From the NCBI RefSeq assembly GCF_003208215.1, contig NZ_QKLW01000006.1, positions 62,001-126,000 of the forward strand: 64,000 nt of DNA, given 5' to 3'. The stretch is from Marinomonas alcarazii. GTDB lineage: Bacteria; Pseudomonadota; Gammaproteobacteria; Pseudomonadales; Marinomonadaceae. Below, piece after piece: positions 40,298 to 48,217 of the stretch; position 1 is the first letter of the stretch, and each line of letters opens with the position of its first letter. Made by a program: the position numbers and the translations under genes. Below the pieces are notes generated by a model. That model saw only the letters and a program-made list of their open reading frames with translations, searched no databases and had not been told where the DNA came from.

Positions 40298-41566
40298 ATG
40301 TCGCTTAAAGAACGTATTGTTATTACAGGTATGGGGCTGGTGTCGCCACTTGGTTTAGGCGTGGCTTCTGTCTGGGATCGCTTGGTTCGCGGTGAATCCG
40401 GTATTCGCTTGTTGCCGACAACCTTGTCGGAAGGGCTAAACACTCATATTGCCGGACAAGTGCCAAGTCATACGGAACAGGTGAATGGCTTGAATGAATC
40501 GGACTATCTGTCACCTAAAGATCGTAAACGTGTCGATCTGTTTACATTATTTGCTCTGGTTGCGGCCGAAGAAGCATTAACCCAAGCCAATTGGCGACCA
40601 ACGACGGCTGAAGACCAAGAAGCCACCGCCACCATCATTGCGACGGGGATTGGTGGCTTGCCGACGATCACTCAAGCGCACACAACGTTAATGGAGCAAG
40701 GCGCTCGACGTTTGTCGCCTTTTACGGTTCCTGCTTTTCTTGCCAATCTTGCGGCGGGTAATGTTTCGATTAAATATGGTTTCAAAGGACCGATTGGCAC
40801 GCCAGTGACCGCTTGTGCGGCAGGCGTACAGGCGATTGGCGATGCTATGCGCCTGTTGCGTACTGGTGAAGCCAAAGTGGCTCTGGCGGGCGGTACAGAA
40901 GCCTGCATCGATCCCTTGTCTCTTGCTGGCTTTGGTGCCTTGAAGGCGCTTTCTACTCGCAATGATGATCCAGAAAAAGCTTCGCGACCTTTCGATAAAG
41001 ACCGTGAAGGTTTTGTGATGGGCGAAGGTTCTGGCCTTGTTGTGCTTGAAACCCTTGAACATGCCTTAGCACGAGGCGCGACACCATTGGCAGAGATCGT
41101 TGGCTATGGCACCAGTGGCGATGCTTATCACTTAACGTCTGGCCCAGAAGACGGCAACGGTGCAGCCCGTGCGATGCAAACGGCGCTCAAAATGGCTGGT
41201 ATTTCTGCGGATCAAATTGGCTATGTAAATGCGCATGCTACGTCGACGCCAGTGGGTGACCGTGGAGAGATTAATGCGTTACGTCGCGTGTTTGGCGAAA
41301 AAGTGACAGAGGTTGCGATTTCATCGACCAAATCCGCAACGGGTCATTTGCTCGGTGCTGCCGGTGGCGTGGAAACCATTTTCAGTGCTCAGGCATTAAT
41401 CACTGGCATTTTGCCTCCGACCTTAAACCTTGAAAATCCAGAAGACAGCATGGCGGATTTGGATCTTATCCCATTGGTTTCACGTGAAAAAAATGTCGAT
41501 TATGTTCTGTGTAACGGCTTTGGTTTTGGCGGTGTCAACGCTGCGATTATTTTGAAGCGCTATTAA
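40298..41566 (+). CDS. fabF: Beta-ketoacyl-ACP synthase II (FabF paralogue)
   Basis: 422-residue thiolase-fold condensing enzyme that elongates acyl-ACP with malonyl-ACP. The Cys-His-His triad is present: Cys in TPVTACAAGVQAIG, His in NAHATSTPVGD and His in KSATGHLLGAAGGVE. GFGFGGVNAAIILKRY ends the protein. It lies outside any fab cluster, is controlled probably by the divergent TetR protein, and is followed by a terminator, so it may be a second, conditional KAS II. The gene contains a parS-like palindrome at 41476-41491. Confidence 0.9.
   Translation: MSLKERIVITGMGLVSPLGLGVASVWDRLVRGESGIRLLPTTLSEGLNTHIAGQVPSHTEQVNGLNESDYLSPKDRKRVDLFTLFALVAAEEALTQANWRPTTAEDQEATATIIATGIGGLPTITQAHTTLMEQGARRLSPFTVPAFLANLAAGNVSIKYGFKGPIGTPVTACAAGVQAIGDAMRLLRTGEAKVALAGGTEACIDPLSLAGFGALKALSTRNDDPEKASRPFDKDREGFVMGEGSGLVVLETLEHALARGATPLAEIVGYGTSGDAYHLTSGPEDGNGAARAMQTALKMAGISADQIGYVNAHATSTPVGDRGEINALRRVFGEKVTEVAISSTKSATGHLLGAAGGVETIFSAQALITGILPPTLNLENPEDSMADLDLIPLVSREKNVDYVLCNGFGFGGVNAAIILKRY
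41476..41491. promoter_or_regulatory. parS-like site 4 (inside the fabF paralogue)
   Basis: GGTTTCACGTGAAAAA keeps the palindromic core GTTTCACGTGAAA (41477-41489), 14 of 16 to the parS consensus. Confidence 0.6.
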
Positions 41567-41655: not shown

Positions 41656-42978
41656 TTAGCCATCCATTAGTTGGCTAGGTAACCAAGTCACCAATTCTGG
41701 GAACATCATTACGATGATAAGAACCAGAAGTTTCAGTAATACAAATGGCGTAATGGATTTGTAGATATCCAACATGGTGATGCTTGGCGGTGCGATGCCT
41801 TTTAGGTAGAACAAGGCAAAACCATAAGGTGGCGTTTGTACAGCAATCTCAATGTTTAGAATCATCAAGATACCGAACCAAATAGGATCGTAACCCAGCG
41901 ATACAGCAATCGGTGTGAAGATAGGTGCACACATTAGGACGATGATAAATTCATCGATAATGAAGCCTAGCAACAGCATGATCAATTGGAACAACATGAT
42001 GACGACAATTGGAGGTAAGCCCAAGTCTTGGGTAAAGCCGGCTACCATGTTTTGCACGCCCATCAGTAAGTGGAAGTTACTGAAAACCGACGCGCCAACA
42101 ATAATCCACATTGCCACACTGACCAGCAACGCCGCTTGCATACCGGCTTTTTGCACCATGCGTGGTTTGAAGCGTTTAAAGAAAATCGCTAATACAATCG
42201 CCCCGACAACGCCTATCGCGCCGGACTCGGTCGGTGTCGCGATGCCCATGATGATACTGCCAAGTACCGCAACGATCAGCAGCAGAGATAATATGCCATC
42301 GCGAGCGGTGAGGAACTTCTCTTTTGGTGTAGGTTGAACTTCTGGCACCACATCCATAGGCGCGCGTTTAGGGTTCAACTTACAAGAAATCACTACGTAA
42401 GTGATTAACAAGACGATGGTGATCAGCGCAGGAATCAAGGCACCAATAAACATGCGCCCTACTGAGTTCTGTGTTGATGAAGCAAACATGATCATCGGGA
42501 TGCTGGGTGGAATCAAAATACCCAAGCCACCGCCAGCCATAATCACGCCAAGCGCTAGACGTTTGTCGTAGCCACGTTCCAACATAGGACGAAGTGCGAT
42601 ACTGCCAGACGTCATGATACCTGCGCCGATAATACCGACCATGGCACCGATCATAGAACACACGACAATCACACTGATGGCCAATGAACCACGTACTCGA
42701 CCAATTAACATTTGGCTGGCGTTGAACATGGCATCGCCAATGCCGGAGCGAGTCAGTAATTGCCCCATGTAAATATACAAAGGTATGGCTAGCAGGATGA
42801 AACTAAAATGTGTCGATTCAAGCGTAGTGGGAATAACGTTAAAGAGCGCATCGCCCCAAGTCATGTAACCTATGCCCATGGCGATACCACCAAGCGCTAA
42901 ACCAACAGGCGCACCCAAGGCAAACGACGCTATGATGCAGGCGAATAAAATGCCCGTTAATAATTCAATACTAATCAT
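41656..42978 (-). CDS. TRAP transporter large permease (DctM-like)
   Basis: 440 residues with about 12 or more hydrophobic segments, the Na+-coupled transport subunit of a tripartite ATP-independent transporter. DctM landmarks: PLYIYMGQLLTRSGIGDAMFNA, GAGIMTSGSIALRPMLERGYDKRLALGVIMAGGGLGILIPPSIPMIMFA and FGILMILNIEIAVQTPPYGFALFYLKG. Overlaps the small permease gene by 4 bases. The substrate is unknown; see its binding protein. Confidence 0.93.
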   Translation of the reverse strand: MISIELLTGILFACIIASFALGAPVGLALGGIAMGIGYMTWGDALFNVIPTTLESTHFSFILLAIPLYIYMGQLLTRSGIGDAMFNASQMLIGRVRGSLAISVIVVCSMIGAMVGIIGAGIMTSGSIALRPMLERGYDKRLALGVIMAGGGLGILIPPSIPMIMFASSTQNSVGRMFIGALIPALITIVLLITYVVISCKLNPKRAPMDVVPEVQPTPKEKFLTARDGILSLLLIVAVLGSIIMGIATPTESGAIGVVGAIVLAIFFKRFKPRMVQKAGMQAALLVSVAMWIIVGASVFSNFHLLMGVQNMVAGFTQDLGLPPIVVIMLFQLIMLLLGFIIDEFIIVLMCAPIFTPIAVSLGYDPIWFGILMILNIEIAVQTPPYGFALFYLKGIAPPSITMLDIYKSITPFVLLKLLVLIIVMMFPELVTWLPSQLMDG

Positions 42979-43529
42979 GGTGCCGTTTCCTCTTGCTCTG
43001 TCTGTGCTTTTGGCAATAAGGGTTTGCCAGTAATTGCTTGATGTAAGGAATCAATCCAGTCGCTGGAAAGTTGCAAAATTAGCAGCACGCTAGCGATTGC
43101 CATCATTAACCAGTAATGATGCATTTGAGGAGCCCATTCACTTTGGCGTCGGTAGTTAAACTCGAGCGCTTCTTCAAACTTACCTATGCTCATTTTGCAG
43201 ACGATGATCATGAAGAACATGGCGAGAGCGAATGAAAATAGGTTAAATATGCTTTTGGTTCGAGCAGAGACTTTGTTGTAAAGAATGTCGACATTAATGT
43301 GGGCGCGTTGCTGTTGGGCATAAGCACCGCCTAAAGCCGCAATATACCCAAAAATAAATAACGACGTGTCGTAAGCCCAAATGGTTGGACTGTCTAAGAT
43401 GTAACGAGAGAAAACCTCGAAAGCAACGACAAATGCTAATACTGGCATTAGGTAGGAAACGGAATTCCCAATGAACGCCACCAATGCGTGGACGCCTAGA
43501 CAATAGCGTCTAATCGCAGTCATTATCAT
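42975..43529 (-). CDS. TRAP transporter small permease (DctQ-like)
   Basis: 184 residues with four hydrophobic helices. The DctQ core is FEVFSRYILDSPTIWAYDTSLFIFGYIAALGGAYAQQQRAHINVDI. ATG 43529 is closest to the AGGT ribosome site; a second ATG 6 bases on is possible. It lies between the binding-protein gene and dctM. Confidence 0.9.
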   Translation of the reverse strand: MIMTAIRRYCLGVHALVAFIGNSVSYLMPVLAFVVAFEVFSRYILDSPTIWAYDTSLFIFGYIAALGGAYAQQQRAHINVDILYNKVSARTKSIFNLFSFALAMFFMIIVCKMSIGKFEEALEFNYRRQSEWAPQMHHYWLMMAIASVLLILQLSSDWIDSLHQAITGKPLLPKAQTEQEETAP

Positions 43530-43608: not shown

Positions 43609-44634
43609 TTATTTCTGTTCTTTACGTAGAACGTCAATCAACTCTTTGCTGTATTTGTCTGCTGCTGCGTACTCATCCCAAAGTTTCGCACCTGCTGCTT
43701 TCCAAGCTGCTTTGTCTTCTGCACTTGGTTCTGGGCTCCACTGAAGGCCTTTTGCTTCCATATCAGCAACCGCTTGAGATTCCCAAAGTTTAGACTTGGT
43801 CATTTGCTCTTGAGCGTGGACAGTCGTCGCCGCTTTAACAATCGCTTTCAAGTCTGCAGGCAGTTTGTTCCAAGCGCTTTGGTTTACGATGATAGGTAAC
43901 ACTTGTGCACCAGCTAGTGGAAGTGGGTACATGTATTTCGCTACTTCAACGTGGTTACCATCGCGGTGGTCGATCATGTTAGAGCCAATAGACCCATCGA
44001 TTACACCAGTAGATAGCGAGGTGTAAATTTCAGACCAAGCAAGAGAAACCGGAGAAGCACCTAGATTACGTAGGAATTTGCCGTATGCACCTGGCGCACG
44101 GATTTTCAAACCTTTGAAGTCTTCAACAGAGTTGATTGGTTCCTTAGTGATAACGTAAACCGCTGGCTGAATGTAAGGGTCAAGCCAAACTAGACCTTGA
44201 GCACCGTACGCTTCTTTAAGGATAGGAGCCCAGCCTTTTTCTTGGAACAAAGTCGTTAGCTCACCAACGTCGCTTGTACCGCCAGGTAGACCGATTTCAA
44301 CCAAGCCTGCTGGAAGCTCGCCCGCGTTCAAAGATTGGAAAGTCGCGCCCATGGTGATTAGGCCCGTTTTTACGGCACCAAAAATGCCAGAAGAACCTAC
44401 ACCTTCACCGTCGTACAAAACTTGTACCTTGATGCGTCCGTCAGACATAGTCTCAATGTTTTTGGCTAAATCTTCATACACTGCACCAAATGCAGAGCCT
44501 CGGCTGTATAGGTTGGCGAAGCGCCAGTTATAATCCGCAGCGTTAGCAGAAGAAGCGACAGCGCCTAATCCAAGAGCTACCGCTAGAGAGCTTACAACCA
44601 ATCGTTTTTTTACTTTTAGTATCGTCTTAATCAT
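43609..44634 (-). CDS. TRAP transporter substrate-binding protein (DctP-like)
   Basis: 341 residues from ATG 44634 (GAGG 5' at 7-base spacing). Signal peptide ending SSANAAD. GLKIRAPGAYGKFLRNLGASPVSLAWSEIYTSLSTGVIDGSIG holds the conserved arginine that binds a carboxylate and the helix-6 motif. The overall look (GGTSDVGELTTLFQEKGWAPIL, IIVNQSAWNKLP) is of the TakP/alpha-keto-acid-like branch, so a monocarboxylate or keto acid is a guess. The chemoreceptor next door may sense the same compound. Confidence 0.9.
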   Translation of the reverse strand: MIKTILKVKKRLVVSSLAVALGLGAVASSANAADYNWRFANLYSRGSAFGAVYEDLAKNIETMSDGRIKVQVLYDGEGVGSSGIFGAVKTGLITMGATFQSLNAGELPAGLVEIGLPGGTSDVGELTTLFQEKGWAPILKEAYGAQGLVWLDPYIQPAVYVITKEPINSVEDFKGLKIRAPGAYGKFLRNLGASPVSLAWSEIYTSLSTGVIDGSIGSNMIDHRDGNHVEVAKYMYPLPLAGAQVLPIIVNQSAWNKLPADLKAIVKAATTVHAQEQMTKSKLWESQAVADMEAKGLQWSPEPSAEDKAAWKAAGAKLWDEYAAADKYSKELIDVLRKEQK

Positions 44635-45031
44635 TGAGCTACCTCGAGTGCAAAAGTGCATAAAAAAGTCACGTCTTTATTGTTGTGACGCCTTGTATTC
44701 GATACTTTCAAAAAGGCTGTCACCATTAAAGCGCGTAAAATCTATCTAAAGTTTTGTAGCTATCAAACAATTAAAAAAGTGAAAAGCCTTTTAAAATCAG
44801 TTAACTAAAGGAATTTGATGCACAAAAATCGCGCGTAACGCACCATAATAGAGCAAATATTAGGTGAAAGGTGTGCATCATTATAGTGAATAATATTGAT
44901 CTATGGTGTTGAAAACGTGCATGTTTTTTGCTTTTTCTAAATATAGATCTGAATATAACGTTCAATAACAAAAACGCCCCAAAGCGGGGCGTGTTATTTT
45001 TTCAGATCATTCAAGCAGGCTTTAAAAATCG
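44635..45031. other. Intergenic region upstream of the TRAP operon
   Basis: 397 bases. It contains TGATGCAC (44816-44823) and GTGCATCA (44873-44880), complementary octamers 57 bases apart that could be a looping operator, and the chemoreceptor terminator at 44970-44996. No ORF supported. Confidence 0.4.
44970..44996 (-). terminator. Terminator of the chemoreceptor gene
   Basis: ACGCCCC (44974-44980) pairs with GGGGCGT (44986-44992). On the minus strand it is followed by TTTTTG. Confidence 0.85.
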
Positions 45032-46921
45032 TTAATTGATGTCAAAACCTTGTATCTGTTGAGCTAATTCGTTTGTTTGATGATGAACATTTTTATTCGC
45101 CATTTGGATAGATTGGGTTGCGGCGTGATTGTCTTTTATATCCTGAGCAATGATGTCCATATCTTGCGCCATTTGTGCTGTTGTTAATGCCACCTCTTTA
45201 ATCGCTTGAGTAATTTCCTGCGTATGGTTCATTGCTTCTAGTGTATTTTGCTCGACTCGATGGATCGTTGTGACAGCGTTTTCACCTTGCTCTTTACTTC
45301 GGCTAACTTTCTTAAGGCTCAGCGTCATAGCATCAATGACTGTTTGTGTTTCTTTCTGAATATTTTCGACTTTCTCTGTAATACTTCCCGATGCTTTGAC
45401 CGTTTGCTCTGAAAGCGTTTTAACTTCGTCGGCTACAACAGCAAAGCCTCGGCCAGCTTCCCCAGCACGAGCAGCCTCAATGGCGGCGTTAAGAGCCAAT
45501 AGACTTGTTTGCTCTGCGACACCGACGATGAGCTCAATAACCACATCAATCTCTTTAGACAGCGCACCAAGACGATCAACTCGTTCGTTAGTATCTTGAA
45601 TAGTGTCCGCCACATCGCTAATGCTGGTCATGGCGTCACGCATGGCAGTGACACCGCTGGTTGCGGATTCATAAGCAACATTGGCGACGCTCTGCACATT
45701 TTGTGTCATAGACTGCACTGTATCTGCGGTGGCAGATATTTCTTCTGTAGAGGCAGCCAAGGTGTTACTGCGATCTCGTATACGCTCGCTGCCGCTGACG
45801 ATGGTTTGAATACCGCTGTCCAGCTCATCGGCCGTGAGCACCAGCTTTTCATTGCTATTAATTAAGTGACTGATCAATAAGCGCAGGCTATCGGACATTT
45901 GGTTGGAAGCAATAAAAAGCTGTTGGAATTCATCTGGATTGCTGGAATCTTGGTTCTGTTGACGGGAACGAAGCTTGCCTTGCGCCACCTCTTTTAATAC
46001 GGCTAATACGGCTGTTAGGTTGCGACTCAAAGAGCGAATCACAGTCGACAAGATAAAACCGATAACCAGCGCCAATACAATACAGGCGATCACCAAAGAA
46101 CTACGGGCTTGTGTCGCTGTTTCTGTTGAACGTATTTGAGCCTTAGCCAGTAAGGTGTTTTGCAGGTAATAGGCGCTTTCATCCATGGCTTGCGTGTATT
46201 GATTGCTTAATGTTGTGAGTTCGCGTTGTTGTTCCTTTATGGCAATAGAGAGAGCAATAACCGGTGCTAAGGCATCTTCATAGGTTTGAATCATTGGGCC
46301 GAAGACATCGCCAAAGCCGATGTTATTAACATTGTTCTTGAGCGTTTGAATCGCGGTCTGAAGGTCTTCTTGGTGTGTCGCATCGCTGTAAGCCAGAAAG
46401 TCTTTTTCTTTCGCCCTCACCTCTTTGAAACTGGCGGCAAAACTTGCTAATGATTTGAGCTGTTCCGCTAACGCTTGTGCAGATTGATTCAAGTGACCCA
46501 GTGCGCCAGTGTTGCTACTTAACCCAAGTGTCGTTAAGTTTTGCAGGTTGTTTTCAAGCGCGGATAAATAGTTAGGCTGTAGAGCTTGGCTGTTTGCTAA
46601 GAGAGTCTTACCTTGGGTATCGAGTAAATCCGCTCGAATGCTGAACCCGGTAGAAGTGGCATGTTTGATATCCGCTAATGTTGCGCTGATCGCATCAATG
46701 TTATCAGGGGAGAGAGTGGTCATTTCGCGTTCAAATTTTAGCAGGGCAATTTCAACGTCTTTGACTTCGCTGGTGAGTCTGCTTAGTTCGGTGGCATCGT
46801 CTGAGGCACTGGACATTTGCGATAAGTTATAAATGGAATAAGCTCCAAAGCCTGCGTAACCAATACAGACCAACACCACAATAGCAATTAGCTTCTGACG
46901 AACGGATAACGCGATAGACAT
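45032..46921 (-). CDS. Methyl-accepting chemotaxis protein
   Basis: 629 residues from ATG 46921, which has AAAGGAGG. TM1 (about 10-30) is followed by a long helical periplasmic sensor (about 35-275), TM2 ([21 protein letters not shown], about 282-302), HAMP, and the coiled-coil signalling domain with the hairpin tip [44 protein letters not shown]. No CheR/CheB tether pentapeptide at the C-terminus (ends QIQGFDIN). Ligand unknown; location beside a TRAP operon suggests attraction to its substrate. Preceded by a structured leader ending in a terminator. Confidence 0.95.
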
Positions 46922-47278
46922 ATAACCTCCTTTAAACCCCTTTCTAAAAAGAAGGGCAAGCAATCAAAACGACAAAAAAGGCCTGTTTATCAAGTAAGAC
47001 AAACAGGCCAAAATAACGTGCTGGAAGAACGAAATGAAAGGCCTGTATCCAGTTGTTAACTTAAGAGCATTGCCAAATCATTTCAGGGTATAACCATGCG
47101 GATACGAATCATCCTGAATGCACAAAACGCCGTCATGAAGGCATTTTGTCTGCGGTAGCCGACATCTCTTACCTTAAAGAAGCAGAAAGGGGGATGAAAG
47201 TAGCTTAAATCAATGTAAAGTTAGAGAATCAACGAACTTAAATTGCGACGATTAGGTTAGTACAGGTGGGGAGAGGCA
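46922..47278 (-). ncRNA. Structured leader or small RNA candidate upstream of the chemoreceptor gene
   Basis: 357 bases without ORF. The minus strand can fold successive stems: ACAAAATGCC with GGCGTTTTGT (near 47122-47149), TTCAGG with CCTGAA (47082-47118), and a terminator hairpin (46974-47009) 50 bases before the chemoreceptor start. This is the order expected of a riboswitch-type leader or a stand-alone sRNA. I looked for the c-di-GMP-I motif, which often precedes chemoreceptor genes, and did not find its conserved core. Confidence 0.4.
46974..47009 (-). terminator. Intrinsic terminator upstream of the chemoreceptor gene
   Basis: GGCCTGTTT (46980-46988) pairs with AAACAGGCC (47001-47009). 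On the minus strand the stem is followed by a T run (forward A tract 46974-46978); on the plus strand there is none. It therefore ends a minus-strand transcript before the chemoreceptor ORF. Confidence 0.75.
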
Positions 47279-48217
47279 ATGAGCGTTAAAAATTATTCAC
47301 TGGGACAGGTCGGTGATTATGAAATCAAACAGTTAAAAGTCTTTAAAACCGTCGTTGATTGCGGTGGATTTTCGGCTGCAGAAACCTCTCTTAATATTGG
47401 TCGATCGACCATTAGCCTGCATATTTCTAATCTAGAAGCCCGTCTGAATCTTGTTTTGTGTAAGCGTGGCCGTGGTGGTTTTTCTCTTACGGAAGAAGGC
47501 GTCATCATTTATAAAATGACCGAGAACTTACTCGAATCATTAGACGCGTTTCGAACCACTGTTAATAACTTAAACGCCAGCTTGACGGGAAAGCTTCGCC
47601 TCGCGCTTTCTGACAAAGTGAGTTTAGATCCGCGTAGTCACTTCCCTGAATTGATTCAGCGCTTTTCCACTGAAGCGCCAGAAGTATCGATCACTACTAA
47701 CGTGTCCTCCATGTCGAACATTGAACGCATGATTTTGAATGACGAGGCTGATATCGGCTTTATTCCTTATCATCGTAAACTGGACGGACTAAGTTACGTG
47801 CATTTATACAGCGACGATTGTTATCTGTACTGTGGTAAGGATCACCCTTTGGCGCTGATGTCTGCCGAAGAGCAGAACGAACAGGTTAACCAATTTCCAG
47901 CGACTCACGCGGGATTAAAGCCGCACGAAGCGATCAGTGAACAAATTTCAGGAATGAACCTCACGGCGATTTCGTATTTTTATGACAGTCGTCTGGCGCT
48001 GATCTTATCCGGTCGTTATATCGGCTTTTTGCCAGAACGCTATGCTGCGGCTTATATAGAGTCTGGGAAAATTGTAGCTGTCGCGCCTGAACACCGCTCT
48101 TACACCTTAGGTGTTGCGGTGATTTGTAAGAAAACCACTCAGCCTAATAAACCTCGTGAATTATTCCTGAAAGTGTTGCATCAAACCGTTGAAGAACTCA
48201 TTTCGGCACCGTATTAG
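47279..48217 (+). CDS. LysR-family transcriptional regulator
   Basis: 312 residues. HTH: EIKQLKVFKTVVDCGGFSAAETSLNIGRSTISLHISNLEARLNLVLCKRGRGGFSLTEEG (about 15-75). The effector domain includes YLYCGKDHPLAL and YIGFLPERYA. GGGGAGAGG lies just before ATG 47279. Divergent from the chemoreceptor leader, so it may control the chemoreceptor and TRAP genes. Target and ligand unknown. Confidence 0.88.
   Translation: MSVKNYSLGQVGDYEIKQLKVFKTVVDCGGFSAAETSLNIGRSTISLHISNLEARLNLVLCKRGRGGFSLTEEGVIIYKMTENLLESLDAFRTTVNNLNASLTGKLRLALSDKVSLDPRSHFPELIQRFSTEAPEVSITTNVSSMSNIERMILNDEADIGFIPYHRKLDGLSYVHLYSDDCYLYCGKDHPLALMSAEEQNEQVNQFPATHAGLKPHEAISEQISGMNLTAISYFYDSRLALILSGRYIGFLPERYAAAYIESGKIVAVAPEHRSYTLGVAVICKKTTQPNKPRELFLKVLHQTVEELISAPY

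Follow-up and report, generated by a model that had tools for sequence, protein, structure and literature searches.

The window analysed here, a stretch of 64,000 nucleotides of Marinomonas alcarazii DNA, carries on its plus strand a gene for a LysR-family regulator (47279-48217; Pfam HTH_1 and LysR_substrate, above cut-off). Divergently from it, on the minus strand, lie a putative small RNA of about 190 nt (46974-47165, its 5′ end placed from the -10 hexamer and its 3′ end from the terminator), a chemoreceptor (MCP) gene (45032-46921; Pfam MCPsignal above cut-off) and the genes of a TRAP transporter, dctP for the binding protein (43609-44661; Pfam DctP) followed by dctQ (42975-43529; Pfam DctQ) and dctM (41656-42978; NCBIfam dctM above cut-off). 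Beyond the LysR gene, the segment 48264-50418 holds a gene for a UxuR/ExuR-like GntR regulator (best family matches, below cut-offs) adjoining a gene for D-mannonate dehydratase (ManD), which is above its curated cut-off. The original prediction had assigned the span 46922-47278 to a structured leader of the chemoreceptor gene. This span does hold the RNA (approximately 47165 to 46974), but a LysR-type box (47211-47237) and the remaining DNA as far as the LysR gene fall within it as well.

Read along the minus strand, the RNA gene begins with this conserved box, GTTCG-N10-AACTTTACATTG, a putative LysR operator, and a -10 hexamer TAAGGT (47171-47176) lying 46 nt beyond the first base of AACTTTA in the box. 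The RNA itself opens with a lineage-specific 5′ domain, the hairpin ACAAAAUGCC/GGCGUUUUGU (47122-47149), recognised as an inverted repeat and in the MFE fold. An ACCCU motif (47085-47089) stands directly 5′ of the second conserved stem, P3 (47031-47084), in which GAAAUGA (47084-47078) pairs with UCAUUUC (47037-47031), and a CUUCCAG motif (47021-47027), our candidate seed, separates P3 from the intrinsic terminator (46974-47009). The latter consists of a 12-pair stem (47009-46980) and six T at 46979-46974, and has the most pairs among the 10 terminator-like sites found in a 4-kb scan (shuffle mean 3.8 sites). It ends 53 nt before the chemoreceptor ATG at 46921, which is itself preceded by AGGAGG, and no second box lies in between; an intrinsic terminator just before the chemoreceptor ribosome site had been correctly anticipated. 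So had at least two stems upstream of it: the minus-strand segment 46970-47200 folds with a z-score of -3.19 (1 of 200 shuffles equally good) and the trimmed RNA, 46974-47164, with one of -3.76 (0 of 200), and the stems are conserved in relatives. The succession of a structured 5′ part, a C/U-rich stretch, a U-rich run and a terminator resembles that of Hfq-dependent sRNAs, and the genome encodes Hfq (99.4 bits).

Known RNA families gave no match. Searching with the Rfam 15 covariance models, as had been advised for this leader, yielded nothing at the gathering threshold in the whole window or at 12 loci of relatives, and only five matches in the leader (46900-47300), with E values of 1.1-6.2 and all far below gathering scores. 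Among known leaders of chemoreceptor genes are the c-di-GMP riboswitches (GEMM), whose core the original prediction had failed to see; neither GEMM-I nor GEMM-II matched the leader up to an E value of 10, or the window or the 12 relatives' loci at gathering threshold. Unlike these riboswitches, the RNA is also present at loci where no gene follows on its strand. Its setting is closer to that of two sRNAs: OxyS (Rfam RF00035), which lies opposite the LysR-type activator OxyR, and GcvB (Rfam RF00022), which is about 200 nt long. As described in PMC1557403, GcvB and the LysR-family gene for its activator, GcvA, are divergently transcribed, and GcvB has intrinsic terminators. The window's RNA likewise diverges from a LysR-family gene, has an intrinsic terminator and is of similar size, but it matches neither GcvB nor OxyS (window and 12 relatives' loci at gathering threshold; 46900-47300 up to an E value of 10). 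The regulators differ as well, that of the window being paired with a TRAP transporter, unlike OxyR with its oxidative-stress genes, and falling below the curated cut-offs of its best 25 NCBIfam families listed, GcvA not being one of them. Judged by its sequence, the locus belongs to a known kind of conserved sRNA gene, without an Rfam match. We did not find this RNA described in the open-access literature searched; passages of PMC11109978 mention a rare nqrA motif in Marinomonas, not this RNA.

The RNA is shared by many relatives. A DNA search of 56 genomes, M. alcarazii included, matched 16 of them, all of one genus, and the divergent LysR gene was present at 20/20 of its loci; the same kind of search matched 20 of 48 genus genomes. 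A covariance model reached at least 62 bits in 18 of these 48, each time adjoining the LysR gene, and at best 39.7 bits outside the genus among 293 genomes of the order. We took these weak outside matches (30.6-39.7 bits) for generic terminators; in the best 10 alignments of 14 loci, with L072 and L073 (outside the genus) unaligned, none of the eight weak matches, four of them from outside the genus, contained CUUCCAG. A 42.7-bit match in G024 (L075) was also rejected, not being at a LysR/chemoreceptor gene of this kind. Six weak matches in G029:C1:4090495-4117745 (L076, L077), several of them about 1.9 kb apart, may represent an array of terminators or hairpins.

Since diverged members would escape a model trained on a single clade, the loci were also read one by one. 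The LysR gene is present in 44 of the 48 genus genomes (the Marinomonas group, that is, Marinomonas and one Maribrevibacterium), and the combination of box, -10 hexamer and terminator occurs at 32/44 of their loci and at 6/6 Oceanospirillum loci, the latter being the six closest LysR orthologues from named genomes. A LysR-divergent RNA gene with its own promoter and terminator can thus be read from the sequence at 38 loci. The 420 nt upstream of 33 further LysR genes (L205-L237, including three second Oceanospirillum copies), inspected by eye, showed no box with a terminated RNA. The 12 of 44 Marinomonas-group loci without the RNA are those of G005, G006, G007, G012, G018, G020, G025, G028, G032, G056, G061 and G068; three of these (loci L006, L007 and L011 of G006, G018 and G028), where it has been lost or, in L011, truncated, were left out of the RNA alignments. 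In G005, G012, G056 and G068, dctP keeps its box in the absence of the RNA, so that the RNA must be dispensable, which counts against reading it as a functional sRNA. In G007 (L178), the LysR gene adjoins fabF, as identified by family search, and the RNA core, the chemoreceptor and the TRAP genes are missing; by eye, G025, G028, G032 and G061 have the same arrangement. In the window, fabF is found at 40298-41566, and in the genomes with LysR and fabF side by side a single deletion may have removed the whole RNA-chemoreceptor-TRAP module.

In the promoter, a TA...T hexamer stands exactly at +46 from AACTTTA at 37 of the 38, the exception being G013 with TACAGT at +45, and near-consensus forms appear in G034 (TAAAAT), G022 (TATGAT) and three Oceanospirillum (TATTAT). 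The box of O. multiglobuliferum has the sequence AATCTTTA. A UAAGGU/ACCUUA stem that could have closed an aptamer was discarded, its UAAGGU being the -10 hexamer at its fixed spacing. The pattern GTTYGNT-N8-AACTTTANRTNG has two matches in the M. alcarazii genome, both inside the window, one before the RNA and one before dctP (44742-44768, minus strand). It matches 33/48 genomes, by position at the LysR/RNA/dctP locus except for G024:C106 and G063:C4, and the reversed pattern, used as a control, has a single match in the 48; the 15 genomes with no match reflect a pattern too strict for some clades. The off-locus boxes are identical to each other (G024:C106:156261-156287 and G063:C4:117838-117864) and possibly belong to a paralogous system. 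At dctP, the box is followed at the same spacing by a hexamer AAGTAT (44707-44702), and the window and eight relatives have this promoter, with AAGTAT, AAACAT or AAGGAT.

Since the box occurs in its own genome only at the RNA and at dctP, it is, on this evidence, the mark of a specific regulon comprising some two promoters. We infer that the LysR protein binds it, and its sharing with dctP and confinement to the locus in this genome suggest that the divergent LysR protein activates the RNA. A scan for the sigma-70 consensus found no match at the RNA promoter, the -35 element of which is weak, and this speaks against an sRNA gene. Because the scan misses this promoter too, its failure to detect one before the chemoreceptor gene is weak evidence. 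To judge by the sequence, the one promoter that is conserved precedes the RNA, so that transcription would start there and not downstream of 46974, where it would have undone the original prediction.

Comparison of 15 aligned intergenic regions, in two of which (L006 and L007) the RNA has been lost, revealed conservation of an upstream block and of the 3′ part, with variable sequence between them. We built a structure model on 14 sequences, excluding L001, L003 and L022 (G000, G024 and G063), which have in common a 21-nt tandem duplication within the RNA, around GGUUAUACCCUGAAAUGA, that shifts one arm of P3. In the 14-row alignment, 94.5% of cells are paired versus 40-57% with the partner slid by one or two columns (51-57% for one), covariation is 0.286 versus 0.212 on average in shuffles (0/500 as high) and five pairs have changed on both sides (a value reached by 11/500). 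With all 17 rows, 93.8% of cells are paired, covariation is 0.262 versus 0.205 (0/500) and six pairs have changed on both sides (11/500); the rows are related, so that none of these shuffle counts is a probability. Both-side changes in other lineages affect four of the nine P3 pairs, and 98.2% of the terminator cells are paired across the 14 sequences. The P3 arms of Oceanospirillum differ and yet pair (CCGGUC/GACCGG, CUGGUC/GACCAG, CCAGUC/GACUGG, CCGAUC/GAUCGG). RNAalifold alone, run on MAFFT alignments, predicts the terminator only and no P3, so the support for P3 comes from the named structure and from individual folds. An alignment of two clade-B RNAs gave no informative outcome. The stems proposed from the window alone have been kept in relatives through changes on both sides, and the covariation analysis suggested for them comes out in their favour.

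Outside the stems, the single-stranded CUUCCAG is invariant in 17/17 rows of the closer clade and present in 18/38 RNAs overall, and ACACCCUGC is invariant in 6/6 Oceanospirillum RNAs. The candidate seed is thus not the same between clades, which weakens the case for an sRNA. ACC[C/U]U is more widespread, occurring in 33/38 RNAs, whose rows are related, against a mononucleotide-shuffle mean of 11.1 and a maximum of 19 in 200 rounds. Conservation is lowest in the 5′ domain, whose place is taken by other hairpins in relatives, and RNA length ranges from 112 to 197 nt by terminator parsing with G021 left out; reading of the loci also located terminators in G021, O. sanctuarii and O. beijerinckii. 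Mechanical open reading frames overlap the RNA in O. sediminis (110 aa; L201:2968-3300, minus strand) and O. beijerinckii (93 aa; L203:2874-3155, minus strand), an observation that would count against a non-coding function. The variation of the 5′ domain and of length, together with the absence of the RNA from 12 of 44 loci, would be expected if a promoter-proximal terminator merely damped readthrough and the RNA had no role of its own. We find this hardly credible, as P3 covaries, the clade-specific motifs do not vary and the RNA persists in O. maris, O. sanctuarii and O. beijerinckii without a same-strand gene downstream.

RNA followed by chemoreceptor is the commonest order, the gene being intact at 26/38 loci (25 with frames of at least 632 codons, plus O. 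multiglobuliferum), which in itself argues for a leader and against a separate sRNA. At the other 12, no intact copy follows: the gene is broken in G027, interrupted in G015 by an in-frame stop after residue 331 (open frame 334) and deleted in G065; dctP comes next after the RNA in G010, G021 and G022, with its box about 500 nt after that of the RNA; and a gene for a sugar-type binding protein, as read from its translation, follows in G064. In the five remaining Oceanospirillum, no chemoreceptor follows the RNA within the 3.4 kb compared. In three of them the neighbouring gene is convergent with the RNA, encoding an alcohol dehydrogenase in O. maris and O. sanctuarii and an efflux protein in O. 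beijerinckii (names from translation); in O. sediminis, a same-strand gene follows. The chemoreceptor is a neighbour of the RNA in many species and probably not what the RNA is there for. Small RNAs derived from 5′-UTRs arise by premature termination, and the window's RNA resembles them in that, where the chemoreceptor is present, it fills the leader and ends at the terminator before the gene; it differs from them in being also a free-standing gene in the three Oceanospirillum with convergent neighbours.

These 12 loci bear directly on the idea of a regulated chemoreceptor leader, in which a ligand acting on a riboswitch or attenuator would choose between termination at 46974 and readthrough. 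Such an element should always be linked in cis to the gene that it controls, and this linkage fails at 12/38 loci. Nor did we find the expected alternative pairing: in 0/18 RNAs with CUUCCAG did the best upstream complement of the terminator 5′ arm exceed shuffles at the 5% level, and an ACAGGCC repeat before the terminator, considered as an antiterminator, has its exact partner only in M. alcarazii among the 18 rows. The 5′ part lacks the conservation expected of an aptamer, and no Rfam riboswitch family matches. With the order of the genes and the short, box-free interval after the terminator in its favour, together with G018, which lost the RNA and has a second box before the chemoreceptor, we still regard control of this kind as decidedly improbable. 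The original prediction had left the choice between a riboswitch-like leader and an independent sRNA, with a preference for a riboswitch from a different or novel class; of these, the sRNA half is upheld by the loci without an intact chemoreceptor and by the convergent genes of Oceanospirillum, and the riboswitch half goes unsupported.

The same observations leave a part for readthrough. Because G018, lacking the RNA, has a second box in front of its chemoreceptor gene, the chemoreceptor appears to belong to the same regulon and to depend normally on readthrough; in the window, with neither a box nor a consensus promoter between terminator and ATG, it is probably readthrough-dependent. Both G018 and G006 (L007 and L006) carry before the chemoreceptor a second box and an apparent remnant of CUUCCAG and terminator, with unrelated sequence between. 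One may thus imagine that the leader does both things, termination releasing a trans-acting sRNA and controlled readthrough setting the chemoreceptor level. The evidence for an sRNA applies equally to this version, and the interval between terminator and ATG fits it, albeit weakly given that the consensus scan misses the RNA's own promoter too; no conserved alternative fold was found, however, and constitutive partial readthrough would suffice. We deem such dual action unlikely.

The reading that we prefer draws on features present in the sequence itself, namely the promoter architecture, the terminator, the conserved stems, the conservation without a chemoreceptor and the box shared with dctP. 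We consider it likely that the locus encodes a LysR-activated, probably Hfq-dependent, base-pairing sRNA divergent from its LysR gene, readthrough of which may express the chemoreceptor. The LysR regulator would bind an inducer, probably the substrate of the TRAP transporter, and, once loaded, occupy the boxes at 47211-47237 and 44742-44768, activating the sRNA and dctPQM promoters. Most transcripts from the sRNA promoter would end at 46974 as a stable product, about 190 nt long, composed of the variable 5′ hairpin domain, the conserved stem, ACCYU, CUUCCAG, a run rich in U and the terminator. With Hfq, this RNA would pair in trans through its C/U-rich stretches with ribosome sites of target mRNAs, as the ACC[C/U]U and ACACCCUGC motifs could do, and where a chemoreceptor stands behind the terminator, readthrough would be the source of its mRNA. 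Activation by LysR, binding of Hfq, pairing in trans and readthrough are the steps that we infer. Counting seed-complement 10-mers in the M. alcarazii genome revealed no enrichment (15 sites, including the RNA locus, versus 21 with the pattern reversed) and indicated no target; near the start of an open reading frame of at least 80 aa there is just one of these sites, 48 nt before it and inside another frame.

Concerning the inducer, the LysR orthologue of Vibrio nereis (L215) lies between genes for succinate-semialdehyde dehydrogenase and L-2-hydroxyglutarate oxidase, and that of a Marinobacterium (L231) is divergent from an omega-aminotransferase gene. From these neighbours, our guess is a glutarate- or GABA-like compound.

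The system appears to define a family of sRNAs in Marinomonas and Oceanospirillum, unmatched in Rfam 15 at the window and at the 12 relatives' loci. A very small regulon with a highly specific box means that regulator, signal and RNA can be tested together, and the relatives provide a natural comparison in which the same RNA has a gene behind it, a dead gene, or none. More speculatively, and with slim chances in our estimate, one LysR protein and one nutrient signal might drive transporter, chemoreceptor and sRNA from twin promoters, with the terminator as a controlled gate. If so, termination would yield the trans-acting RNA and readthrough the chemoreceptor, and uptake, taxis and post-transcriptional control would be opposed in a single transcript.
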